A stretch of DNA of 32,870 nucleotides, taken from positions 1 through 32,870 of IMG/VR virus record IMGVR_UViG_3300007512_000127; one strand, 5' to 3'. The position numbers and the translations under genes were made by a program. The notes under the pieces are model-generated. The model saw only the letters and a program-made list of their open reading frames with translations. It made no database searches and had not been told where the DNA came from. Source of the stretch: a virus. The stretch's first letter is position 1; each line of letters starts with the position of its first letter. Shown here piece after piece: positions 13,280 through 26,671 of this stretch.

Positions 13280-14734
13280 TTAACCTAACCATTTAGGAGT
13301 ACCCTTGTAAGTAAGGTCGTTATCCTTTTCTGCACCCATAGGCCAATAAGGCAAGGTCCGAAAACGAGGATAAGAACCCTCCATGAACAAGCCGTTATTT
13401 TGGTCGTTTGCCCCACCAATCTGCGTGGTGAAGGTCATGTCGACGGATTCATTGTCTCCAATAGCGTTGGTAAACGTTTCGCTGTCTAAGCGAGCATTTT
13501 TCACTTTATATATAAGTTTGTCCGCTCCCGCAGTAGTGCAGGAAGAGTCTCTCATTGTTAAGGTGAATTCATGTGTTTGCCTGTTACAGAGTTCTTCGAA
13601 TAAGTTCTTATTCTGAAGCTCAGAAACCACAGCAGAAACCGTGCAGCTGATATCAACCGGAAGATCAACTACTCGAGCGTAACCAAAAGTACTTCCAAGC
13701 CGCTGTAGGATTGTACGACTCAATGGGACGTTAATGGTGAAGCTTTGAATATGGGCCGCTCCATCGCCAGCCATATCAGCTAAACCGTAATATGATCCTG
13801 AGGCGCTCATTGATAAGGTCAGATCTCCCGGACGAAGAGCTGCAATATCAGAACTACCAGTAGTATTAAAGGATGTTCCATTAGTGTTCTGGTCGCTCCA
13901 AGTACCGGCGTTGCCTATTCCGGTTTGGAAGACATAACGGTTGCTTCCGCTATTTCCTTCGAGGGTTACCCCGGGAACGCCTTCATCTAAATATATCCCT
14001 CCAGTTGAGAGGGGGGCGCCGGAAAGATGGTCGTCCACTTTGATATTAAAAGCTTCGACAGTAACAGAAGCTGTAGGAATAGATCCTACTGCAGCTTCAA
14101 CTGTATAGTCGCTCACAAAGCCATTACCAATAGCAACCACATCGTTTTTGGTATAAGCGGTTCCAGTTGCAGCCAACGCTGTTGTACCTTGTACGTCCTT
14201 GCCGTCCGGAACAACCGTAATGAAGAAGTTGTTTCCTTGGGGATCGTTGAGGACGCCAGAAAGAGCTGAATAGCCAGATATGCAGCCATCCCCTGTCCAG
14301 AAAGCTTGATCTTCATTTGCTCTGCCGTACGCTTCGTCGGTCGAAGTGGGAACATTAAAGCCCATTTTTCTCTCGTTGCCGCCGTCAGTTAGATAATAAT
14401 TAAAATCCAGTCCAACAGTCGGGGATTCCATAACGATAGAATCCAAACGAGCCAATTGACCGAATTCGTTAATGTCTTGCCTGTTAATCGTAAAATTAAA
14501 GTTGGCGGATTGTATTCTCTCCATGGGTTCAAGCAGAGCACGGTTCTTACACGAGAACCGAGTGTCCTCCTTACGCGCAGGAACACCTGTCCACATCACG
14601 CTGTAAGTATCGTCACGTGATATGCCCGGGCCCGTTGATTCGTTGTTGCCTGTTTGAATATGGAAGCCAGTAGAGCTAGGAGCTATAAAAAGCGCCTGAC
14701 TTTGATAAATAATTCTGTTTCTTGAGGTAGCCAT
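13280..14734 (-). CDS. tail-tube-like protein (copy A of three)
   Basis: This 484-residue protein appears built from two related beta domains, about residues 76-240 and 329-445. Internal signatures are NFNFTINRQDINEFG with GLDFNYYLTDG, GFVSDYTVEAAVGSIP (205-220), and FTINVPLSRTIL followed by LPVDISCTVSAVV. The same signatures recur in the plus-strand proteins starting at 25664 and 28373. Gene order (head closure, completion protein, structural protein, then this) points to a major tail-tube protein, with the other two copies as distal tail rings. It is the last gene of the minus-strand island and ends at the bidirectional terminator. The upstream region has CTGTAACTATT, a weak relative of the GTGTA box. 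Structural role fairly confident, exact ring position inferred. Confidence 0.62.
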   Translation of the reverse strand: MATSRNRIIYQSQALFIAPSSTGFHIQTGNNESTGPGISRDDTYSVMWTGVPARKEDTRFSCKNRALLEPMERIQSANFNFTINRQDINEFGQLARLDSIVMESPTVGLDFNYYLTDGGNERKMGFNVPTSTDEAYGRANEDQAFWTGDGCISGYSALSGVLNDPQGNNFFITVVPDGKDVQGTTALAATGTAYTKNDVVAIGNGFVSDYTVEAAVGSIPTASVTVEAFNIKVDDHLSGAPLSTGGIYLDEGVPGVTLEGNSGSNRYVFQTGIGNAGTWSDQNTNGTSFNTTGSSDIAALRPGDLTLSMSASGSYYGLADMAGDGAAHIQSFTINVPLSRTILQRLGSTFGYARVVDLPVDISCTVSAVVSELQNKNLFEELCNRQTHEFTLTMRDSSCTTAGADKLIYKVKNARLDSETFTNAIGDNESVDMTFTTQIGGANDQNNGLFMEGSYPRFRTLPYWPMGAEKDNDLTYKGTPKWLG

Positions 14735-14790
14735 AGTATTTTAAAGTTTTATTAAAAATAGTTACAGCCAAAATGGGGGTTTGAGAACTT

Positions 14791-15675
14791 TTATTGTCTT
14801 GGAAAACGGTATTTGTTGATTTCAAAGTCGATGAAACCTACATATAGTGGTACAGGTATGAATTTATCCATTTTATCTGAAATCTTAGAAACCGTAGTGT
14901 TTTGCACAAAGAAAGTGTCTGTTGAATTGTTGTTTGCAACATTCTTATAATCATATCCCGTAGGATAGGTGGATTTGATATTGCCGTATTCATCGAGGGG
15001 GGATCCGGTATAGGGGATTCCTCTAAACACCTCTTTAGAGGCGTCTGCAAAAACAGAAAGAATGCCGTCTAATTGATAAGTATTTTCCGCAAAAGCTACA
15101 GCGGTAATGTTGGAGATAGTGTTGTCTTCTCCTCCAAGGGCAAAGGGTTCGTTTGTGCTTGTAGTTGTAGAAAGAAAAACTGCAGGCGTTACCTCGTCGT
15201 ATGGAGCTACATTCGTTAATTCTCGTGTGTAACGGGCATTGAGCTTATATTTGCCTTCCATTATGAGACTTTCTTCGTTTTGGTTGGAAACATAAGTATT
15301 AAAGTTTTTTACGCTATATCCTCCGCTAATATTGGCAGTAGTGGCTACAGAACTATCAAATAGAACGCGCCCGTTGTCGTAATCAAGTAGAAGGCCGCTC
15401 GTCCCTGTTGTGTTGCCAGCTGGGTTGGTAAAGGTAACAGGGCCAGTGGGGCCATCGCCGCTAATAGAGGGGATAGTGGCATTTTGAATGCTCTTATCAT
15501 AAACCCATTGTTTGTAAGGGGAGCCAAATACTGTTTTGTTTTGAATTCGTTCGTCTGAATAGTTATAAAAGTCGGTGCCTTGGAAATTTTTGTAGGCAGA
15601 GCCTTTATCGAGCAGGAAATGGTCGAACCATAAGTAGAAGCTTGTTAAGAGTTTATGTTGATAGAGTGGTTTCAT
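14791..15675 (-). CDS. virion structural protein of the neck/tail-terminator region
   Basis: I do not recognise a family for this 294-residue protein. It starts with a helical, aromatic segment (KLLTSFYLWFDHFLLDKGSAY). It continues with Gly/Thr/Asn-rich sequence typical of beta-structured virion proteins (LLLDYDNGRVLFDSS, NISGGYSVKNFNTYVSN) and ends FIDFEINKYRFPRQ. It overlaps the upstream neck gene by ATGA and precedes the tube-like gene. This is where siphoviruses usually encode the tail terminator, although it is longer than most of those. No catalytic residues or membrane segments are seen. A structural role is likely; the specific role is not established. Confidence 0.45.
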   Translation of the reverse strand: MKPLYQHKLLTSFYLWFDHFLLDKGSAYKNFQGTDFYNYSDERIQNKTVFGSPYKQWVYDKSIQNATIPSISGDGPTGPVTFTNPAGNTTGTSGLLLDYDNGRVLFDSSVATTANISGGYSVKNFNTYVSNQNEESLIMEGKYKLNARYTRELTNVAPYDEVTPAVFLSTTTSTNEPFALGGEDNTISNITAVAFAENTYQLDGILSVFADASKEVFRGIPYTGSPLDEYGNIKSTYPTGYDYKNVANNNSTDTFFVQNTTVSKISDKMDKFIPVPLYVGFIDFEINKYRFPRQ

Positions 15676-16277
15676 GTGATGGTTTCTTTTTCGATTTTTC
15701 TGATCTCTTTATAATAATTGTTAAGCAAAGAACTTAAATAAGATGTATTGCTAAACTTGCCTGCGCGAAGCCTTCCTTTTACTTGGACAGCTCCTCCTGA
15801 GCGGGAGCGAGCAGAATCTTGGTATAGATATCTACCTAAACCTGAGATGCCCGTTTCGATGCCTTTTGCCCAACTGCGACCTGTCGCCCATGGCATCGGA
15901 GTAACCTTAAAGAGTTCGGAGGCAGTAGGAACTGTAATGTTAATAGTGGTGCGACTCTTAGTGTGGTGGTATCTTATTTCATATTTTTCTAACAATGTAC
16001 GTACAATAGCTAAGGGCTTTTCTCCGCTACTAAACCCTATATAGGTAAAAAGGTTGCCTATTCCTCCAAGGGTGCCGCTTAAATTACCAGCACTAGCTCC
16101 TCCTTCTATTTCTGCGGTCACAGGGTGTTTTTCAAAACTTTTTAATAGATTTTGTTGAGCTGATTTTACTTTTTTTTCGATAGCCTGTTTAATCCCTCTG
16201 GTATAAGACGCTTCGCGAGGCACAGCATTCTGTATCTCTTTGAGCGTTTTACGGGTAACGGATTTTGCGATAGGCAT
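15672..16277 (-). CDS. putative tail-completion/neck protein (HK97 gp10-like position)
   Basis: At 201 residues it begins with a basic helical segment (SVTRKTLKEIQNAVPREAS, then AIEKKVKSAQQNLLKSFEKHP). A Gly-rich turn region follows (GGASAGNLSGTLGGIGNLFTYIGF), then a beta-rich part with TINITVPTASEL and PWATGRSWAKGIETGISG, and a basic helical C-terminus. Helix-then-beta with N-terminal lysines is reminiscent of HK97 gp10-type tail-completion proteins. The location between the head-closure candidate and the tube agrees. ATGA overlap with the next gene suggests coupled translation. The family call is tentative. Confidence 0.42.
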   Translation of the reverse strand: MPIAKSVTRKTLKEIQNAVPREASYTRGIKQAIEKKVKSAQQNLLKSFEKHPVTAEIEGGASAGNLSGTLGGIGNLFTYIGFSSGEKPLAIVRTLLEKYEIRYHHTKSRTTINITVPTASELFKVTPMPWATGRSWAKGIETGISGLGRYLYQDSARSRSGGAVQVKGRLRAGKFSNTSYLSSLLNNYYKEIRKIEKETIT

Positions 16278-16278
16278 A

Positions 16279-16731
16279 TTAACTAACTGATTTAAGGTAG
16301 ATGGTGTAAAATTTCACTCCAAAAACTCCGTGCGCACGAAAGTCGCTATCGATTGCAAATTTTTGACTATCAAATTCTATTCGTTTAGCTTCTGACACCG
16401 TAGCATAATCAGCAGCTTTGAATATCATTCTTACCTCTCCTTCAGGCAAAAAGATTTTAAGCTGGGAATTGGACTGGCTGTTTGCGAAATAATCTTCAGT
16501 ATAATTTTTTCCATATAGCAATCTGGCGGACACAGTCGAAGATTGAGGTGTATAAGTTATAGGTGTGGTTGCGCCTGCGTTGCCATAAATAGTATTATAA
16601 GACTGACTGGGAGAAGATACCGTAACTATCGCGTCTTTGTAAACTGTGACGTCTCGTGCGAAGGTATCGTGCAGATCGTCCATTGCGTTATTACAGGTTG
16701 TTTTTTCTGCATCTGTTAAAAGGCTTGCCAT
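16279..16731 (-). CDS. putative head-closure/head-tail joining protein
   Basis: This is the first gene of the minus-strand island. ATG 16731 gives 150 residues. A GTG at 16746 is in frame but coincides with the GTGTA box, so ATG is preferred. The protein has an N-terminal helix (LLTDAEKTTCNNAMDDLHDTFARDVTVYKD) and then beta strands ending FDSQKFAIDSDFRAHGVFGVK and YTIYLKSV. This pattern of compact strands with a final 'drive/recast to standard coordinate' strand pair is like head-tail joining proteins (SPP1 gp16 type). The overall gene order of the island supports a neck role. Sequence evidence for the family itself is weak. Confidence 0.42.
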   Translation of the reverse strand: MASLLTDAEKTTCNNAMDDLHDTFARDVTVYKDAIVTVSSPSQSYNTIYGNAGATTPITYTPQSSTVSARLLYGKNYTEDYFANSQSNSQLKIFLPEGEVRMIFKAADYATVSEAKRIEFDSQKFAIDSDFRAHGVFGVKFYTIYLKSVS

Positions 16732-16737
16732 ACTATT

Positions 16738-16748
16738 TATATACACTT
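16738..16748 (-). promoter_or_regulatory. AAGTGTA box upstream of the minus-strand island
   Basis: On the minus strand AAGTGTATATA has GTGTA at 16746-16742, 15 bases before ATG 16731. It is preceded by a long A/T-rich run and there is no Shine-Dalgarno. Having the same box on the opposite strand, at the head of the opposite operon, supports a directional transcription signal. Confidence 0.55.
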
Positions 16749-16798: not shown

Positions 16799-17545
16799 AT
16801 GAAGTCTATTTATAGTTTTACCGTCAATACTACCGAAGAAGTAGAGGAAAAGACAAAAGAAAAGCGAAAAAATGAAGAAACAGGGGCTGAGGAAGAAATT
16901 GAGGTTTCTAAAAAAATAGAAAAAGAAATTCCTCACGAAATTTTCATAAAACAGCCTAGTCGAAGGCAGCTAGAGGAAGCGGACATGGAGTATTCTATTG
17001 AAATCAGCCGTTGTATCAAAAAAGGAATTCTAACAAAGGCTATGCTTGCTAAAAAATATTCTGATACAGGGGGAATTTTAACGGAAAAAGACGCCAATCG
17101 TCTGGTTGATCTTTATAGCCAGTTAGCAGATCTAGAGATGGAAATGGCCAAAAGCGGGACCCATCCCACTGACGATACAAAAAAAGCTAAAGGTCTGGGA
17201 GGTAAGTTGGCTATGACGAGGAGAGAAATTGTTGATTTGGAATCTGCCTACCAAAGCCTTTTTAACCATACAGCAGACATTAAAGCTCAAAACAGGGTGA
17301 TTTTATGGTATATGGTTACGTTGGCGCATATCCAAAAAGAAGGGGTTGAGAAACCGGTGCCGCTTTTTGATGGTAAAGAATTTGAAGATCGCATTGATTC
17401 TTATTATGATCAAGACGAAAAAGAGGACAAACTTTTTAGGGCATTTTCTTCTAAGCTGGCAGCTATTATAAGTTATTGGTATTTTAGCGAAAAACCAACT
17501 CAAAAAGAATTTGATGATATAATTGATGACCTCGCATCCAACTAA
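16799..17545 (+). CDS. putative tail-assembly chaperone, first of a pair
   Basis: This 248-residue, highly charged and helical protein has no enzyme motif. It begins with strand-like MKSIYSFTVNTTEEVEEK and a Glu/Lys-rich loop, then IPHEIFIKQPSRRQLEEAD followed by long helices. It resembles the next protein in outline: an 'IF.VK..S...' strand, then an acidic helix, then 'T..D' and a long helix. The pair directly precedes the tape measure, where lambda-type siphoviruses encode the G and GT tail-assembly chaperones. The upstream region is very AT-rich, with no GTGTA box and no clear Shine-Dalgarno, and is divergent from the neck island. Function is inferred from position, overlap and composition. 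Confidence 0.45.
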   Translation: MKSIYSFTVNTTEEVEEKTKEKRKNEETGAEEEIEVSKKIEKEIPHEIFIKQPSRRQLEEADMEYSIEISRCIKKGILTKAMLAKKYSDTGGILTEKDANRLVDLYSQLADLEMEMAKSGTHPTDDTKKAKGLGGKLAMTRREIVDLESAYQSLFNHTADIKAQNRVILWYMVTLAHIQKEGVEKPVPLFDGKEFEDRIDSYYDQDEKEDKLFRAFSSKLAAIISYWYFSEKPTQKEFDDIIDDLASN

Positions 17546-18515
17546 AGTTAACTTTAGGTATTTATTTAAGGATATTGTTAATGGTTTTTCTGAAGTAGAG
17601 TTTAAAGGGCGCATTTTTTACGTTAAACATCTTTCCTCTTTAGATCAGGTAGACCTAGAAGAGCTAGAGGAGAGTTTTTACGCGGAAGCCAAGAAGAGGG
17701 GGCTTCCTACCGAAGAGGAAATCTTAGCGCGACTTCGAGAAGAGGAAATGTGGACAGACGCTGATGATGCGGAAATCTCAAAAACAGAAGCGTATATAGC
17801 GAGCCTACAACAAACTCGAAAACAGCTTTATCTTAAAACACAAATAGAAGATAATGCTAAGGAGGCTGAAAAAGCAAAACAGAACCTAGGCGAATTGTTA
17901 TTAGTTAAAACTAATTTAATAGGCCAAAGCTGCGAAACGCACTCTAAAAGACGTACGAGTGACCATTATATCCTCAAGTCTTTTTATGAAGACAAGGAGC
18001 TGCAAGTGCCTCATTTTTCAGAAGAACGGGTTGATGAACTAGGGAAGGATGAATTATTGGAAATAGTGATTAAATATAATGATAAAATTTTATGTTTAAG
18101 TGACGAAAACATCCAGCGTATTGTCTTGCAAGATTTTTATAGCGCTTATTTTCCTTTTTCAGATAATGTGATGAATTTTTATAATAAGCCGCTATTTAAT
18201 CTTTCACTTAATCAAGTTAAGCTTATTGTTTTCACTAGGATGTTTAAGAATATATTTGAAGGCTACCCCAAGATGCCAGATGATATTAAAAAGGATCCTA
18301 TGAAAATTATTGATTATGTAAATGCTCAAGATAAAGCTAAAGATGTGGTAGATAATTTAGACAAAGACGGTGCTTCTACTGTAATGGGAGCCACAAAGGA
18401 AGATTATGAGTATTTAGGTTATAAGGAAAATCCACAAGGTCGCTCATTGAGCGATATGCTAAAAGCAAAAGGAGGTCGTATGGATATGAAAGATTTGATG
18501 GAAACCATGACATAG
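17526..18515 (+). CDS. putative tail-assembly chaperone, second of a pair
   Basis: From ATG 17526 the protein has 329 residues (a TTG directly before it, at 17523, is in frame). It overlaps the previous gene by 20 bases. It opens with FRYLFKDIVNGFSEVEFKG, then IFYVKHLSSLDQVDLEELEE and an acidic helical region (about 45-120). A helical middle follows, and the C-terminus is charged (GRSLSDMLKAKGGRMDMKDLME). The frame is closed by a TAA immediately upstream (17520-17522), so any ribosomal frameshift into it from the previous gene would have to occur within 17523-17545. I see no slippery heptamer there, so re-initiation is the simpler reading. The family is not recognised; the role follows from its place before the tape measure. 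Confidence 0.45.
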   Translation: MTSHPTKVNFRYLFKDIVNGFSEVEFKGRIFYVKHLSSLDQVDLEELEESFYAEAKKRGLPTEEEILARLREEEMWTDADDAEISKTEAYIASLQQTRKQLYLKTQIEDNAKEAEKAKQNLGELLLVKTNLIGQSCETHSKRRTSDHYILKSFYEDKELQVPHFSEERVDELGKDELLEIVIKYNDKILCLSDENIQRIVLQDFYSAYFPFSDNVMNFYNKPLFNLSLNQVKLIVFTRMFKNIFEGYPKMPDDIKKDPMKIIDYVNAQDKAKDVVDNLDKDGASTVMGATKEDYEYLGYKENPQGRSLSDMLKAKGGRMDMKDLMETMT

Positions 18516-18563: not shown

Positions 18564-21500
18564 ATGATCAAACTCGACGCCGTAATCAATGACAAAAAAC
18601 TTTTGGCTTCTATTCAAAAGGGAGTGGATGTATTTAATCGCTCGACGGCTGGTAAAAGCAAATTAAATTTAAAAATCAACGAAAAAGGGTTTCGTCAACC
18701 CTTGGGGCGTATCACCGGGGATTTGGACAAATTTGAATCTGCCCTTGCGGCATCCAATGCTCGTGTTATTGCGTTTGGAGCTTCTACCGCAGTCATAGGA
18801 GGAGTGACGAGAGCCTTCAAAGAACTTGCAGCGACCACCGTTAACGTACAAAAACAATTTGCTGATATAAATCGTATCCTTAATGTTAGTAATAAGGAAT
18901 TTGATACGTTTTCAAATAGTTTGTTTAACATTGGCAAGAAGACCGCAACGACTTTTGATGATGCGGCGAAGGCAGCTCTAGAGTTTGCTCGTCAAGGCCT
19001 AGGGATGAATGAGACCTTGAAACGCACCTCTGATGCATTGACTTTGGTCCGTTTGACAGGAGTGAATGCAGATAAGGCGGTAAGCGCCCTGACAGCTACG
19101 GTTAATGCTTTTCAGCAAAGCTCCTTAACTACCACGCAAGCTCTCAACAAGTTTGTTGCTGTAGAAACAAAGTTCGCTGTTTCCGCTAAAGATTTGATGG
19201 AGGGTTTGGGGCGTGTTGGTTCTGCTGCGGTAGATGCAAAGGTAGACTTCGATGAGCTGAATGCCATGATCGCTGCTGTTCAGCAACAAACCGGACGAGG
19301 TGGGGCTGTTATAGGTAATGCTCTTAAAACTATTTTTACGAGGCTGCAACGAAGGGACACCTTAACTGCATTAGAGCAGTTTAATGTGGAAGTACAGGAT
19401 ATGCAGGGCAATATTTTGCCAGCTATGACTATTTTGCAAAACTTTTCGAAGGCATACAAAACCTTGACTGACGCAAACAAGGCTTATCTTCGAGAACAAG
19501 TAGCGGGTGTTTTTCAGGCTAACATTTTGTCCGCTATAGTTAAAGATATTAATAGCGACTTTCAGGTATATAACAGGGCGCTAACAACTTCTACCGAGGC
19601 TACTAATGAGGCCGCTAATGCCAACGCCCGCTTAAACCAAACAATAAGCGCTCTATTGTCACAAACAGGAACCGACCTAATTCGATTACAAGAAAATATT
19701 GGCAAGATTACTTTTGAGCCTATAGCTCGTGCCATTCTAGGGCCTTTTAGGGATATTGTTGCGAATATTAATTCTCTTCTTGATGGCGAGGGTATGGGAA
19801 GCGACTTTGCCAACGGTCTTCTCAAAGGTATTAGAAATATTATAGCGGGGCCCGGGCTTGTTGCGGCTATAGCTGTAATTGGTAAAATTTTTATTACTAC
19901 TGCTGGTTATATCACAAAAGCAATACCTACCCTTGTCGGTATTACTACTGAAAAACAAAAACAAGCAAACTTACAAGCCACGATAGACGCCCTGCTTAGA
20001 AGCGATGAGAATTTATCGAAATTAATTGCCCAACACGAAGGGAACGCTGCGAAACAAGCCGGGATACTAGCAGGTCACGCAAGGGCGCAAGAAAAAGCAT
20101 TCAAAGCATCCGCTACCTCCACAAGCCTAATTGCTACTAATTTGCGGATGGCAGGCATGACCACCAATAAGGCAGGTTCTATTGTTCCTACTGGTCGCAG
20201 AGGTGCACGTGGATATGTGCCCGGTTTTGCGGGAGAGGCGGCAGATATTCGTCGAGGAGTGGGAGGAGTTAGTTCGGGGGCGCGTCCGGTGCATATTCCT
20301 AATTTTGCGTTTGGAGGGGGGCAGCGGGGTAGTATGGTAGCCAATACTGGAGAGTATATGGTTCCTAATTTTAGGGGTGGTGGTTCTGCTATTTTTAATC
20401 CAGCTATGGTGCGCGCTAATGGAGGTTTGCCTCAAGGGGCAAAAAGAATTACGGCTGCGCAGGGGTATGTACCTAATTTTGCGGCGCCTGCCGCTTATAC
20501 AGCGGGCATGCAAATAATTAGCGCAGGAAAAAGTGGCGGTAGTTTGGCAGGATGGAATACCCATAGAGATGCTTTGGTTGCTTCAGGTCACCATTCATAT
20601 GCAAAAAAACTCCAAGCGGCTAGGGATAAAATCCAAGCTAAAAGAGGGGCCGCTCAAACCAAAGCCAAAACTAAAGATCTCTACTCCATACCTGCTTCAG
20701 AGATAGGAATCGGAGCTCTAACAGGGTACCAATCAGGGGCAGATACCCAAAGTCCGCGTTCTTCGTTTTCGGTACTATTAGCATCTAAAGATACTGGGAA
20801 AGTGGCTGACCCTACTTTGTTGAAGTTCATGAAAGCTCATCAACACAAATCTTTACAAATTAGCAAGCTGCCTGTTGCCGGGATCAATAAATCCAACCAA
20901 GGGCAAACTGAAGCAGAGTTAGAACAGCACTTTTCTTCTACTTTGAATGATTTTATGTTACCTGCCCTTAATGACTATAGTGCAAGTATATTTAAGTCAG
21001 TATTAGGGGACGATGGCAAAAGTTTTATTAAGGAACTTAAAAACAATAAGCAGCGCGTTTTTTCCACTTCCACCGAAGGGGGTATTTTTGAGAGCGCCAT
21101 ATCTTTAGCAAGCCGAAACGCCAAAGCTTTTGGTGGAAGCGATTCGGCTCGTTTTGATTTTGAAGAAGCTGGTCATATGTCCGGTACTTTGCGGGATACT
21201 TTTTTTGCCACTTGGCCGTGGATAACTCGTGCAGACGCAAAGCGCTCTGACAAGTCGGAAAATATCCGCAGCCTCCTTGGAAAGTCTTTAGGAACCCCAG
21301 AGACAGCAAAGTCGATTAAAAACTTTATGGCCGGAGATATTTCGGCGTGGCAAAAACAACGTCGTTCTCGGGCACGGACAGCACGGGCAGCAGGCGGTTA
21401 TATCCCTAACTTTGCAGGGGGTTTAGGAGCTGCGCTACAGCGAGAAAAAGCAGCAGGCGTTCCTTCTTCTGCAATTAGAGTCAACAGTTCTCCTCGCTTC

Positions 21501-24500
21501 CAATCTCCAGTAAACCCTGCGGGTTTAGCTGTTACAAATACTATTGATGAGCCGAGAGGGTTACGAGATGTTCCTAATTTTGCAGACACTGATATTGTGG
21601 CAAGATCCGGAGGGCAGGCTGCATTGTTGGGGATGCCGGGATTAGACAAAAGAGGAAAATGGGCTGCTTCTTTTAATAAAGTGCTCGCTGGAGCTGCTGA
21701 CGATTGGGCGAACAACCGAACAACCACAACAGAATTTACTGATAGACTTAAAAGTTTAAGCAATCAATATGGTGTCACCGGAGACGCACAAAAGACAGTT
21801 ATTAAAAACACCAAAGCTCTCGGAAAACAATTAAGACCCGGAGGTGGTATGGCGGGTATGATGGCTATGATGATGGTGCCTATGGCGGGAGGTATGATTG
21901 AACAAGGAGTAGGGGGTCGCACAGGTTCAGCAATCAGTGGCGGCCTAACAGGGGGCGTAACAGGGGGATGGTTAGGTGGTATGGCAGGGGCGGCAGCAGG
22001 TGCCAAGTTGGGTGGAGCTATGGGTGCGTCGGGAGGCCCAGTTGGAATTGGAGTAGGCATTACCGTGGGAACATTGGCGGGAGTCATGACCTCATTGGAG
22101 GCTACTGCTGCGAGTGCGCAATCGTTGAGTGGTGAGCTACAAACTCTAACTGGACAAATTCAGTCCAATGGAAAAGCTGCTATGGAGTATATTCAGGCGC
22201 AAAAAGATTTGACTGCTGCGGCTACTGAAGATGAGTTGACAGCTGCGTCTAACAGGGCTGCGATTGCCCTTGAGGGTATCAGCGATACAGATTTAGCTGA
22301 ACAGTTCGCTGCAGCTGGGAAGAATGTTGATGAGTTAACCAATAGTTTAGAGCGGTGGAGCGGTCGGCAGGCCATAACAGCAAAAATGAAAGGAGCTCAA
22401 GCGGGACTTTTGGGTGTTGCGGAGCAAGGTTTTGAGGATGATGTAGAGAGGCTGCTGGCAATTCCGAAGGAGAAGGACAGGGAAGCGGCAATAAACAGAA
22501 AGATGAAGGGAGCCACGAGGGGTTTAATGAAGCTTTTTATGGATCCAGCGCTTTTTGGCCGTACTGGAAAGGATGCTGTAGGCGCGGAACCTGAGGATGT
22601 GCGCAAGTTTTTTAAGAATCTTTTTAAGGAGGGAGGAGATACAACTGGCTGGAGCGTATGGGGTAGGTTAAACGAATCGGAGCTCAGGGATCACCTTGAA
22701 AAATCTTTTGGTGATAAGGGTATGAGTGGTGAGATGATAGCCCAGATGGCCGCTGTTCTTGAGGCTATTGATCCGGGGTTTTGGGAATATCAAGCTCAGG
22801 ATGCATTGATAAAATTCGTCAGAGGAGGGGAATTAGCTGACTTTTATGGCGACATGTTTGGTGCCGCTCGTGATGTCGTGGAGAAGAATAGAGGGAACAT
22901 TGTTACCGCAGCTAACTATACCCGTGATTTTGAAAAATTATTAGAGAGCATCAATGACTCCGTCCTCCTTTACACTCAGGACTTAGCAATCATAGCGCGG
23001 GAAACGGCTATACGTGACGCTACCCTTACTGCGCGCAAAGGATTCCTTGGGTTTCGAGGAGGTCGATCTAATTTAGCAGAAGCAAGGGGAGTAAGCGCTG
23101 CCAATTTTGCTGGCAGGCGACAAGCACTCGATCGTAATATATTTAACGAAAACCGAGGATCGATAACCGCTAATCTGAAAAAAGTTTTTAAGACTCCCGA
23201 AGGGTTACGAGGTGGTTTTCAGGATGTGTTTTTTGGGCCGGGAGGTTTTACACAAGGAGGTGCCGCCGGAGGCATCAATAAACTTAAGTCAATGCTTGAG
23301 AGCGGAGAGGTGCTTGAGTTGGCACCGGATGCCGTGGAAGGTATGGCCACTTTGGTTACCACACTCGAAGCAGCCTATGCTAAAGGACTTGAGGCTATTG
23401 AAAAAGACGAAAAGGTTCAAGAAATAAAATTCAGAGCTGAAGAGCTGCGGGCTCGTGTTACTGAGGAACAGTTTCGTTTGGCTCTTCTTGAGGAAAAAAA
23501 TATCAACGCGGAAAAGATGAGTATGGAGAAAGCTCGCGGAGATTTTCAGCTTTTTAAAATGCGTCAGAAGAGGTCCGTTGAGTCGCCCGAGGCAATGTTT
23601 GGCCTTACTCCAATGGAACAAACTCTCAAAAGACAAGCGGCTGATACTAATATTTTTAACCGACAAAGAGGCCTTGACCAAAAACAACGGTTGAGCGATG
23701 CGCGACAAAAATTTATTGAAACAAAAACTCAGGTTGCTTTAGATACTACAACAGGCAAATTAGTGGATGTGAACTTGCGTTTGGAAGGGGCTATTAATGC
23801 CCTTAATGCCACACTAAATGGAACCCCAACGCTACCTCCAACGGGGGTAAGTGGTCCTAGCGCACATAAAAAACCTACTTTTGGTAAGTCTATCGCTAAA
23901 GAAGACGTTGAAGTTACTCTTGGTCCATTAGGTGACGATCCTTCTATATTTGACGTACTTGGTAGTTGGGCGAAGGGTAACATAGAAGCCGTAAAACAAC
24001 AAGTGCAACGAAAATCTCAAAAAGAAGCTTATATAAAAGATAAAATCAGCGCGATTAAGAAAAGTAACGCGCTCGGTGCGAATAATCCGGAGATGCTTGA
24101 GCGAGCTAGAGGCCATTTTGGTCGAGAATTTGAAGCGGCGAACCCTGTGCTCACTGCTGATAAAGCAGTAAAAGAGACCCCTGTGCTCACTATTGATAAA
24201 GTAGTAAAAGAGACAGAACAGCGGTTGAAAGAAACTTCCGTTGCCTCCGCAGCTGCAGCTCCTTCCCATCTGATGGATACCACGGGATACCACCCTCTTT
24301 TGTCGGCACAAGTGGGAGCGGGATTCAATGTTGAAAACTACAAGTTAACCAGCGACGAGCTTAAGTTTATTAATCAGCAGACACAGGAGATCAATCAAGC
24401 TGTCATGGCGGGAAATGAAGAGGGAGCAATAGCCTTGGCCCGTGCAAGACAAAGCGCGGCCGCGGTATTTGATTTAGGTAACCAAACTGATAAAGCGGCA

Positions 24501-25664
24501 GATAGCACCAAAGAACTAGCAGATAACTGGGAACGCGTTGACGCAGCCGCGTCAACAAAGTTTACAGCAGGGCTCAGAAAGGGATTCGATGATGTTGCAC
24601 AGCAATCTCATTTTATCTATAGGGAACTAGGAGAAAAGCTTCCTGTACAATTTAGGGATAACATGGTAGGGGCGATCGGAGCAGCGATGGATAAAACCTC
24701 TAGTTTAGGGGACGCTCTTGATGGGGTCGCATTAGCATTTTTAAGTACCATGCGTCAGGCTTTTCTGCAGAGCGCGGTAAGCAACATGATGAATGTGGGT
24801 AAGACTTTGTGGACTGGTAGTCAGAGGGGCGGTTTCATTACAGCACAAAACGGCAGATTTGTAGGAGGAAATAGCACAGGAGACAGACATCCCGCTCTAT
24901 TGGAAAGCGGCGAATATGTTTTGAATCGTAATGCTGTTGGAGCTTTAGGTGGGCCTGAGGCTTTGAATTCAATTAATTTTGGTATGGCTCCTCGTTTCCA
25001 AAAAGGTGGAGGGCACTTAATGAGCCTTTCAGAGAAAATCCCAAGTTCTCGCTTTAGTGGCCTCTTCTTGCAGCGAGGAAATCCGGAGTATGCTGAGTAT
25101 GCTGACGCTGCATCCGCAAAACAGCAGGCGGCGATGGCAAAACACCAAAAGAAAGAACAAAAGAAGGCTATGATTCTGAGTACGATAATATCTGGGGTAA
25201 TGGCTGCAGGAGCCGGATGGGCTGGCAGCAAATGGGGCAATAAGCCACCAGCTGGAACTACGCAAGGATTTAATCAGTATGGTCAATGGTCAAGTCTAGC
25301 GCCAAACCCGCAGCGTGGAGGTTATATTGGTCGTCAAGCTGGTGGATCAATCGGAGGTAGTGTCGCTCGTCGTTATGGGCTGTTCCAAGGAGGCGGTACC
25401 GTACCTGTTTCTTCAGGGGCCCCTTCTTTGGGCGGATCTACTAATACCAATAATATTAGTATAAATATTGGCTTAGGAGGCGACAATAATTCGCCGGGCA
25501 GTGGGGCTAGCCAAAGCGCCACCGGAAATACGGGGGCGCCATCACAAGCCACCACATCTGACGCAAAGGCCCTCAGCGAGAAGATAAAAAGCCAAGTCTT
25601 AAAAATCATAACAGAAGAGCAGCGAGTAGGCGGTTCGTTGAGTCCCGGGGGCAGGAGACCATAA
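18564..25664 (+). CDS. tape measure protein with embedded nuclease-like module
   Basis: This 2366-residue protein sets tail length and is expelled with the DNA. At about 1.5 angstroms per residue, the usual rule of thumb, it implies a tail near 350 nm. Residues ~1-420 match a TP901/PhageMin-type core (RVIAFGAS, TTFDDAAKAALEFARQGLG, RGGAVIGNALKTIFTRL). A hydrophobic stretch lies at ~425-460. Six PNFA-type motifs start at residues 550, 577, 597, 634, 945 and 1002. Between the fourth and fifth is a ~300-residue insert with E843, D865 and D891-A-K893 in a PD-(D/E)XK-like arrangement. A Gly/Met/Ala-rich hydrophobic region (~1093-1178) follows. Then come long helical parts, a 12-residue tandem repeat (1861-1884), the typical C-terminal LLESGEYVLNRNAV signature, and a last hydrophobic segment. 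It overlaps the next gene by one base. Confidence 0.93.
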   Translation: MIKLDAVINDKKLLASIQKGVDVFNRSTAGKSKLNLKINEKGFRQPLGRITGDLDKFESALAASNARVIAFGASTAVIGGVTRAFKELAATTVNVQKQFADINRILNVSNKEFDTFSNSLFNIGKKTATTFDDAAKAALEFARQGLGMNETLKRTSDALTLVRLTGVNADKAVSALTATVNAFQQSSLTTTQALNKFVAVETKFAVSAKDLMEGLGRVGSAAVDAKVDFDELNAMIAAVQQQTGRGGAVIGNALKTIFTRLQRRDTLTALEQFNVEVQDMQGNILPAMTILQNFSKAYKTLTDANKAYLREQVAGVFQANILSAIVKDINSDFQVYNRALTTSTEATNEAANANARLNQTISALLSQTGTDLIRLQENIGKITFEPIARAILGPFRDIVANINSLLDGEGMGSDFANGLLKGIRNIIAGPGLVAAIAVIGKIFITTAGYITKAIPTLVGITTEKQKQANLQATIDALLRSDENLSKLIAQHEGNAAKQAGILAGHARAQEKAFKASATSTSLIATNLRMAGMTTNKAGSIVPTGRRGARGYVPGFAGEAADIRRGVGGVSSGARPVHIPNFAFGGGQRGSMVANTGEYMVPNFRGGGSAIFNPAMVRANGGLPQGAKRITAAQGYVPNFAAPAAYTAGMQIISAGKSGGSLAGWNTHRDALVASGHHSYAKKLQAARDKIQAKRGAAQTKAKTKDLYSIPASEIGIGALTGYQSGADTQSPRSSFSVLLASKDTGKVADPTLLKFMKAHQHKSLQISKLPVAGINKSNQGQTEAELEQHFSSTLNDFMLPALNDYSASIFKSVLGDDGKSFIKELKNNKQRVFSTSTEGGIFESAISLASRNAKAFGGSDSARFDFEEAGHMSGTLRDTFFATWPWITRADAKRSDKSENIRSLLGKSLGTPETAKSIKNFMAGDISAWQKQRRSRARTARAAGGYIPNFAGGLGAALQREKAAGVPSSAIRVNSSPRFQSPVNPAGLAVTNTIDEPRGLRDVPNFADTDIVARSGGQAALLGMPGLDKRGKWAASFNKVLAGAADDWANNRTTTTEFTDRLKSLSNQYGVTGDAQKTVIKNTKALGKQLRPGGGMAGMMAMMMVPMAGGMIEQGVGGRTGSAISGGLTGGVTGGWLGGMAGAAAGAKLGGAMGASGGPVGIGVGITVGTLAGVMTSLEATAASAQSLSGELQTLTGQIQSNGKAAMEYIQAQKDLTAAATEDELTAASNRAAIALEGISDTDLAEQFAAAGKNVDELTNSLERWSGRQAITAKMKGAQAGLLGVAEQGFEDDVERLLAIPKEKDREAAINRKMKGATRGLMKLFMDPALFGRTGKDAVGAEPEDVRKFFKNLFKEGGDTTGWSVWGRLNESELRDHLEKSFGDKGMSGEMIAQMAAVLEAIDPGFWEYQAQDALIKFVRGGELADFYGDMFGAARDVVEKNRGNIVTAANYTRDFEKLLESINDSVLLYTQDLAIIARETAIRDATLTARKGFLGFRGGRSNLAEARGVSAANFAGRRQALDRNIFNENRGSITANLKKVFKTPEGLRGGFQDVFFGPGGFTQGGAAGGINKLKSMLESGEVLELAPDAVEGMATLVTTLEAAYAKGLEAIEKDEKVQEIKFRAEELRARVTEEQFRLALLEEKNINAEKMSMEKARGDFQLFKMRQKRSVESPEAMFGLTPMEQTLKRQAADTNIFNRQRGLDQKQRLSDARQKFIETKTQVALDTTTGKLVDVNLRLEGAINALNATLNGTPTLPPTGVSGPSAHKKPTFGKSIAKEDVEVTLGPLGDDPSIFDVLGSWAKGNIEAVKQQVQRKSQKEAYIKDKISAIKKSNALGANNPEMLERARGHFGREFEAANPVLTADKAVKETPVLTIDKVVKETEQRLKETSVASAAAAPSHLMDTTGYHPLLSAQVGAGFNVENYKLTSDELKFINQQTQEINQAVMAGNEEGAIALARARQSAAAVFDLGNQTDKAADSTKELADNWERVDAAASTKFTAGLRKGFDDVAQQSHFIYRELGEKLPVQFRDNMVGAIGAAMDKTSSLGDALDGVALAFLSTMRQAFLQSAVSNMMNVGKTLWTGSQRGGFITAQNGRFVGGNSTGDRHPALLESGEYVLNRNAVGALGGPEALNSINFGMAPRFQKGGGHLMSLSEKIPSSRFSGLFLQRGNPEYAEYADAASAKQQAAMAKHQKKEQKKAMILSTIISGVMAAGAGWAGSKWGNKPPAGTTQGFNQYGQWSSLAPNPQRGGYIGRQAGGSIGGSVARRYGLFQGGGTVPVSSGAPSLGGSTNTNNISINIGLGGDNNSPGSGASQSATGNTGAPSQATTSDAKALSEKIKSQVLKIITEEQRVGGSLSPGGRRP
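20211..21584 (+). repeat. dispersed GY(I/V)PNFA-type peptide repeats within the tape measure
   Basis: Copies encoded from 20211 (GYVPGFA), 20292 (HIPNFA), 20352 (EYMVPNF), 20463 (GYVPNFA), 21396 (GYIPNFA) and 21567 (DVPNFA) share a core Pro-Asn-Phe-Ala, except Gly for Asn in the first and Arg for Ala in the third. DNA identity between copies is modest, so they are conserved as peptides rather than recent duplications. Copies four and five bracket the nuclease-like insert. Confidence 0.75.
24144..24215 (+). repeat. 36-bp direct tandem duplication in the tape measure
   Basis: Unit 1 (24144-24179) and unit 2 (24180-24215) encode PVLTADKAVKET and PVLTIDKVVKET. They differ at only a few bases and keep the frame, which indicates a recent tandem duplication that adds 12 residues to the tape measure. 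Confidence 0.85.
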
Positions 25665-26671
25665 TGGCTAAAAACGCAGTACCAAGTTACGAATCTCAGT
25701 TTTTCCTTCGTAGTGATCCTAAGGACGCGTCTCCTGCGATATATGGAGTATCTGGTATACGTGACTGGGAGGCGAGCTATAGTGTGCCCGAAGCTTCAAT
25801 TAATGCATTGGGGGTTGGTTTTGTTCGCAATGTTTATGATGGCCCATTACAGGGGCGACTTTCTTTAACGCGAGATCTTATTTTAAACGACGATCCTGTT
25901 TTAACTTATACTGGAGAAGATTCTTTTTCTGGCACATTAATTTATGACACCTATATAGGCAATGGAGATGAAAAAGTTTTTGGCTTTAATTCTGGTTATT
26001 TGACTAGCTACTCTGTAAGTTGTGGAGTTGGGGGTGTTCCTACGGTAGATTCGTCTTTTGTAACCTTTGGCAGATTTGGTAGCGGTATTCGTCACGGGGA
26101 TTTAGATTATTCCGGCAACTCTCCTTTAGCTGGGTCTATGGGCACTCGGGTGCGCCCTGTTCCCAATCAAGGTTCTATATGGTGTGGTTTTGGACAATCT
26201 GGTACAAACCGGGTGACGCAAGTAAGCCAAAATTATGAAATTAACAGAGAGCCTATTTATGATCTTAGCCAAAAAACAGCTTCAGATTTAACAGGTGGCG
26301 CAGGCTTTGTGCCAGCAGAAGTTATTACTAATTATCCTATAGAAGTTACAACAAATATGACGGTTGAAGTAGACGATTACGAAACTGCCAATATTATGGA
26401 TACTATACGTAGTGGTCATTATGAAAATATTAGCTTGACAATGTATCAAAGTTCGCTTTCTGTTGAGCATCTTTCAGGTCCAAACGAAGTAGGGGGCACT
26501 ACCAGCCTAGAGGATGATAGCTCAGAAGCCTTGGAAGATAATGGGTACAAGACAGTATATAGATTTAATAGCGTAACGGGACAACTTGTGTCTCAAAGTG
26601 TAAAAACATCAATAGATGGAACATTAAGTGTAGACTTAGAATTTAAGGATTATTTAAACAGGAACTTCTAA
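25664..26671 (+). CDS. tube-like distal tail protein (copy B of three)
   Basis: This 335-residue protein starts at ATG 25664, one base inside the tape-measure stop, with AGGAG about 6 bases upstream. It has the same two-domain outline as the minus-strand tube-like protein. Domain one holds EASYSVPEASINALG, RNVYDGPLQGRLSLTRDLI and GYLTSYSVSCGVGGVP (111-126). Domain two starts near 185 with NYEINREPIYDL and continues YPIEVTTNMTVEVDD. Immediately after the tape measure, siphoviruses encode the distal tail protein whose fold derives from the tube, which fits. No enzyme motif. Two AAGTGTA matches lie inside its last 80 bases, ahead of the fibre gene. Paralogy is visible; the exact ring is inferred. 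Confidence 0.58.
   Translation: MAKNAVPSYESQFFLRSDPKDASPAIYGVSGIRDWEASYSVPEASINALGVGFVRNVYDGPLQGRLSLTRDLILNDDPVLTYTGEDSFSGTLIYDTYIGNGDEKVFGFNSGYLTSYSVSCGVGGVPTVDSSFVTFGRFGSGIRHGDLDYSGNSPLAGSMGTRVRPVPNQGSIWCGFGQSGTNRVTQVSQNYEINREPIYDLSQKTASDLTGGAGFVPAEVITNYPIEVTTNMTVEVDDYETANIMDTIRSGHYENISLTMYQSSLSVEHLSGPNEVGGTTSLEDDSSEALEDNGYKTVYRFNSVTGQLVSQSVKTSIDGTLSVDLEFKDYLNRNF

Follow-up and report, generated by a model that had tools for sequence, protein, structure and literature searches.

Why does the tape measure protein (TMP) of an uncultured tailed phage contain a stretch that does not resemble a tape measure, and does this stretch encode a nuclease that is injected into the host? This question was raised by an IMG/VR contig of an uncultured phage (IMGVR_UViG_3300007512_000127; 32,870 nucleotides, hereafter referred to as the window), in which the initial annotation proposed a nuclease-like module at residues 641-944 of the TMP. 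In the present study, the insert was found to be one of many exchangeable cassettes bounded by short PNFA motifs, which the initial annotation was not in a position to see. The cassette, its borders, its exchange between relatives, its invariant residues of a catalytic type, and the presence of other enzyme families in equivalent slots are all supported by the sequences. We consider that the TMP probably carries this PD-(D/E)XK-type nuclease cassette into the host as injected cargo resembling that of polymorphic toxins. The carrier and its conserved domain are as follows.

18564..25664, plus strand: TMP gene, the carrier of the cassette (2366 amino acids); matches to PhageMin_Tail (2.9e-26), TIGR01760 (TP901 tape measure; 3.2e-30), and phrog_4211 (PHROG tape measure; 5e-39)
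18690..20060, plus strand: conserved N-terminal tape-measure domain (approximately residues 43-499), common to PNFA-type TMPs; 93% identical to the related locus L122

Based on the N-terminal domain matches and the length of its product, the open reading frame (ORF) at 18564-25664 encodes a phage TMP. The profile of the N-terminal TMP domain was present in 150 of 202 ORFs with PNFA motifs, many of the remainder being fragments, and the long PNFA-rich ORFs mostly appear to be tape measures of one family. The TMPs of SPbeta, Lactococcus, and Enterococcus phages are related to window-type TMPs in the N-terminal domain (24-34% identity), whereas the cassette is unmatched in them. The parts of the cassette and its candidate active-site residues are located as follows.

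20484..21395, plus strand: exchangeable cassette, residues 641-944, defined by a sequence check, comparisons with relatives, and border motifs
20484..20675, plus strand: linker at the N-terminal end of the cassette, residues 641-704, with predicted helices; ~20-30% identical to close relatives
20676..21338, plus strand: nuclease-like core, residues 705-925; AlphaFold2 (AF2) pLDDT 88.4, pTM 0.80
21090..21092, plus strand: codon of E843 (GGIFE) in a predicted helix (model helix 131-146); 131 E and 3 D among 134 domains
21156..21158, plus strand: codon of D865 (FDF), with moderate model confidence and no strand predicted; D in 134/134
21234..21242, plus strand: codons of D891-A-K893 on a predicted strand (model 185-191); 91 D and 43 E at position 891, K in 134/134 at position 893
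21282..21284, plus strand: codon of K907, a further basic/polar position in the helix after the DxK strand; 113 K, 18 Q, and 3 gaps among 134

The motifs GGIFESA (E843), ARFDFEE (D865), and ADAKRS (D891 and K893) are positioned within residues 641-944 exactly as initially annotated. The insert itself holds up as a distinct module; however, its conserved core is confined to approximately residues 705-925, and residues 641-700 resemble a variable linker. The same domain recurs in other TMPs. Relatives (~330 loci) were gathered by scanning viral contigs for GYIPNFA codons and GYVPNFA codons and by protein-based scans, and an iterated profile of the insert core identified 246 copies among them, from which 134 domains remained after the removal of relatives with >80% identity.

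The proposed order E...D...(D/E)xK was retained throughout these relatives, with no free variation of its four residues: all 134 of 134 non-redundant domains from uncultured phages combined an acidic residue at 843 with D865, an aspartate or glutamate at 891, and K893. Column entropy was 0-0.9 bits for E843, D865, D891, and K893, against a median of 3.2 bits, and the four columns with the lowest entropy among 139 were E843, D865, K893, and G839, which is the G opening the GGIFE motif. Some loci had been fetched with seeds that included GxFE; therefore, the count was repeated on loci obtained from the PNFA pattern alone or from the window itself. The conservation of E, D, and (D/E)xK was unchanged in these 87 domains, which had not been pre-selected for the domain. 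Among all 125 copies from PNFA-fetched loci, there were just two exceptions, both of which were truncated rows.

PD-(D/E)XK enzymes share this residue order, tolerate D/E exchange, and have a following K/Q position. The window domain and its relatives show the same order and substitutions of E, D, and (D/E)xK with the following K or Q, and D/E exchange falls chiefly at the positions at which these enzymes tolerate it. In contrast to the superfamily, the domain has no detectable profile or fold match, and the long spacing between D and (D/E)xK (26 residues) holds a short predicted helix. We conclude that an ordered active-site signature of the PD-(D/E)XK type at E843, D865, and D891-x-K893, and thus a nuclease-type site, is strongly supported by residue conservation.

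The TMP contains five PNF motifs, at P579, P601, P637, P948, and P1004, the third and fourth of which border the cassette.

20292..20309, plus strand: PNF motif 1, HIPNFA (P579), from the motif reading of the TMP
20358..20375, plus strand: PNF motif 2, MVPNFR (P601), from the motif reading of the TMP
20463..20483, plus strand: left border motif GYVPNFA, residues 634-640 (P637), at which DNA similarity to relatives stops
21396..21416, plus strand: right border motif GYIPNFA, residues 945-951 (P948); DNA similarity restarts at 21396 for L122 and L123
21567..21584, plus strand: PNF motif 5, DVPNFA (P1004), from the motif reading of the TMP

The flanking of the insert by PNFA motifs, as described in the initial annotation, was confirmed at both edges. 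The pattern G[YF][IV]PNFA occurred 1018 times in 198 non-redundant ORFs versus 21.6 expected in shuffles, and the extended consensus across these ORFs is A-[AS]-x-G-[YF]-[IV]-P-N-F-A. Moreover, 118 of 129 copies of the nuclease-like domain were bracketed by PN[FYL] motifs, and in 100 of 137 TMPs of sufficient length the domain was placed after the N-terminal TMP domain. PNFA may be where the TMP is cleaved, may bind the tube, or may be no more than a linker. An earlier description of the PNFA motif was not found in the open-access literature.

The borders are also sharp at the DNA level. Blastn similarity of the window to its closest relatives ended at 20482 (L122) and at 20480 (L123), namely, within 4 bp of the first base of the cassette (20484), and both restarted at 21396. 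Amino acid identity between the window and L122 was 93-97% through GYVPNFA, 22% over the next 60 residues, 39-57% in the core, and 88% from GYIPNFA. We compared 30 TMP pairs with N-domain identity of 87-97%, a few of which reuse the same contigs and, thus, are not all independent. Median identity was 92% before the cassette, 53% within it, and 83% over the 60 residues that follow it; in 16 of the 30 pairs, the cassette trailed each of its flanks by 10 points or more. TMPs that are >90% identical ahead of the motif may share only 25-40% identity in the cassette; L138/L164 and L098/L322 were 95-97% identical ahead of the cassette and 28-29% inside it. The opposite pattern was noted for L116/L134, with cassettes 99% alike versus 91% for the N-domain. 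An extra cassette ending in a PNF- or PSF-type motif adjoined the nuclease-like one in L123 and L124. Swapping at the motif borders accounts for this pattern of identity better than uniform divergence. A conserved backbone with sharply bounded, exchangeable domains, as in polymorphic toxins and polyvalent cargo, is supported by these alignments. A lone, one-off insertion was rejected because the insert belongs to a family of cassettes. DNA similarity to L122 and L123 was also lost in a second stretch of the TMP gene (23870-24275).

PNFA-bracketed segments without the nuclease-like domain formed ~95 groups. Pfam matches among these cassettes place diverse enzyme families in the variable slot: PolyA_pol (9.5e-15), SNase (1.9e-9), and GNAT (Acetyltransf_1; best 7.4e-5, in two members). 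The SNase match is a PNFA-bracketed homologue of staphylococcal nuclease in L082 (8754-9344, minus strand). An equivalent slot is thus occupied by a second, unrelated family of nucleases, which lends support to nuclease cargo as a theme. The most likely source of the PolyA_pol match (the head domain of PolyA polymerase/tRNA nucleotidyltransferase) is the bracketed segment GGAPRDHLLG...KDWDVEVFG in L211 (7575-8987, plus strand).

Further cassettes were classified by eye. GNAT acetyltransferase-like cassettes were noted in L238 (1997-2458, minus strand) and L040 (2240-2656, minus strand), and ADP-ribosyltransferase-like cassettes (LYRG...STS...) in L083 (672-1334, minus strand), L162 (7915-8550, minus strand), L204 (6200-6865, plus strand), and L133 (10194-10715, plus strand); Pfam was silent for the L083 cassette, which was searched individually. 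Of the cassettes lacking the nuclease-like domain, the commonest, in L026 (8210-8698, minus strand) and 22 relatives, is P-loop-like (GPAGTGKTTFAAAGG), and its longer relative in L111 had a weak Pfam AAA_30 match. A second D...ExK-like family (SAIDLV...AEVKGG), in L196 (5038-5667, plus strand) and 16 relatives, showed a weak DUF2130 match (0.028) and is possibly another PD-(D/E)XK family. Other leads included kinase-like, HAD-like, P-loop, HExxH-like, and further D...ExK-like segments.

TMPs exit the phage tail during infection. The lambda TMP is located with inner-membrane entry proteins (PMC13190303), and TMPs with cell wall-cutting (muralytic) domains are established (PMC6116005). We propose that the TMP brings the cassette into the cell, where the latter cleaves nucleic acid. 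The TMP would fill the tail tube and then leave before the genome or along with it, reaching the inner membrane or cytoplasm and delivering the cassette, which may fold in or after the tail. Its substrates there would be host DNA, resident plasmids or prophages, or nucleic acid belonging to a defense system; the initial annotation named host, plasmid, and rival phage DNA as possible targets. The DNA of the phage itself would be spared by some form of protection. This mode of action may be likened to that of polymorphic toxins or of polyvalent proteins that are injected, and the rapid turnover of cassettes may be driven by conflict with hosts, defenses, or competing elements. The injected-cargo role is plausible and unproven.

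Several observations weigh against this proposal. The PD-(D/E)XK fold suggested in the initial annotation was not supported: a Foldseek search of the AF2 core model against PDB and BFVD yielded no significant match, PD-(D/E)XK or other, despite the confidence of the model, and the insert had no useful match in Pfam, PHROGs, NCBIfam, or PDB sequences, with profile and consensus searches both silent. The stretch around D865 reached a pLDDT of only 65-76, with no strand predicted. At the sensitivity of tblastn, the insert was also unmatched in 50,697 cultured-phage records and has no cultured member. Furthermore, a folded domain of 220 residues may not fit the tail tube and, therefore, may have to travel unfolded. 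A self-protection or immunity gene was not identified, and no search was aimed at immunity genes; the gene downstream of the TMP (25664-26671) had no PHROG match.

The AF2 model of residues 705-925, with an alignment depth of 68 sequences, nevertheless places E843 in a helix, DxK on a strand, and K907 in the next helix, whereas a single-sequence AF2 prediction of residues 641-944 was uninformative (pLDDT 42). An exploratory coupling analysis (~105 effective sequences) hinted at a contact between FDF and ADAK, but was distorted by invariant columns. Weak PDB and Pfam matches (a histone fold protein, nucleolin, ribosomal eS1, EutA, and single-member matches) were attributed to chance because they involved one member at best and the catalytic residues did not correspond. 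A profile-profile comparison with the other cassette families, a set containing no known PD-(D/E)XK profile, revealed no relationship. Scans of genome collections with one subfamily returned no relative, and those with another returned just one contig, in a Flavobacteriaceae metagenome-assembled genome. We call the domain PD-(D/E)XK-like and do not assign it firmly to the superfamily because it carries the active-site signature, whereas a PD-(D/E)XK fold is tentative.

The conservation of the active site would equally be expected of a nuclease that serves the phage's own particle or genome, by processing or trimming the incoming DNA end, checking packaging, or blocking superinfecting genomes at the entry site. 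The N-terminal part of the TMP may lie near the genome end, and the cassette is located in the N-terminal 40% of the protein. However, housekeeping predicts a stable domain, yet turnover is more rapid in the cassette than in the flanking sequence and unrelated enzymes (GNAT and PolyA_pol) fill equivalent slots; we regard this role as rather unlikely. Turnover may instead reflect a variable recognition domain that escapes TMP-binding defenses, such as SNIPE, or has switched its inner-membrane partner, with the conserved residues being structural or metal-binding only. TMPs are both the binding partner of SNIPE and the proteins to which its escape mutants map, and a variable TMP region of phi-R68.2 accompanies different susceptibility and ManYZ use (PMC13190303), and the cassettes examined here are highly variable. 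Nevertheless, an invariant E/D/(D/E)xK set amid a domain this diverse is what catalysis produces, and other cassettes match enzyme families, which makes recognition alone quite improbable.

A confident model with no Foldseek match, together with the lack of a nuclease profile match, is also what a metal-dependent enzyme with a new fold would give, for example one with other phosphodiester or phosphate chemistry rather than a DNase. We see little likelihood of this since the residue order, D/E exchange, and K/Q position follow the PD-(D/E)XK pattern. Sharp DNA borders and cassette exchange may also suggest a homing-type nuclease that selfishly promotes its own exchange among TMP genes, and phage nuclease genes are reported to sit often at exchange boundaries (PMC10448857). 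However, the cassette is encoded in frame within a structural protein, decayed copies were found in 0 of 134 domains, and non-nuclease cassettes occupy the same slots; inspection by eye, short of a systematic search, revealed no intein-like splicing signature. Homing is, in our opinion, very improbable.

We favor an exchangeable nuclease cassette that would be injected with the TMP, and compared it with known systems. Similar to the window TMP, the polyvalent and MuF-type injected proteins are large, virion-linked, multidomain proteins with enzyme domains (nucleases, ADP-ribosyltransferases, and GNATs) for which a role inside the infected host has been proposed (Iyer et al. 2017, PMC5512222). 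However, their virion carriers are head-linked (MuF, portal, and T4 Alt), in contrast to a tape measure with short PNFA borders, and the word "tape" is absent from that paper. An enzyme is likewise built into the peptidoglycan-hydrolase TMPs of T5 (pb2), mycobacteriophage TM4, and the S. aureus phage phiIPLA35 (cited in PMC6116005); those domains breach the cell wall, whereas the window domain has a nuclease-type site and can be exchanged. Bacterial polymorphic toxins, including the PoNe PD-(D/E)XK DNase effectors (PMC3482391, PMC6688995), also combine a conserved delivery backbone with a variable enzyme past a conserved border. They differ in that the carrier here is a phage TMP and the cassette is internal, not C-terminal; an adjacent immunity gene was not identified in the window, and none was searched for. 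Earlier reports of TMP nucleases, TMP effector domains, or such cassettes were not found in the open-access literature. What is new here is chiefly the system of exchangeable cassettes in the tape measure.

Regarding the surroundings of the TMP gene, the two ORFs just upstream (16799-17545 and 17523-18515) overlap at 17523-17545 in different frames, which recalls the frameshifted pairs of tail assembly chaperones, although inspection by eye gave no clear slippery site. Four opposite-strand ORFs (13280-16746, minus strand) are situated within the structural gene block, and the largest (484 amino acids) had no PHROG match.

It appears an even chance that, in a large group of uncultured tailed phages, the TMP is a polymorphic-toxin-like launcher of PNFA-delimited, interchangeable enzymes (several nuclease families, acetyltransferases, nucleotidyltransferases, and probably others), which are injected with the genome to disable the host, its defenses, or resident rivals. 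The head is an established source of injected phage effectors. The TMP is the first thing through the membrane. If this proposal is correct, the TMP is also a cassette-carrying effector platform, many unannotated parts of very long TMPs would become a catalogue of early-acting enzymes, and TMP variability would be tied to the conflict of phages with defenses acting at the DNA entry point. The PNFA motif provides a sequence handle for finding such cassettes. Moreover, the cassette reading offers a testable answer to the role of folded-looking inserts in a protein that has long been seen as a ruler.
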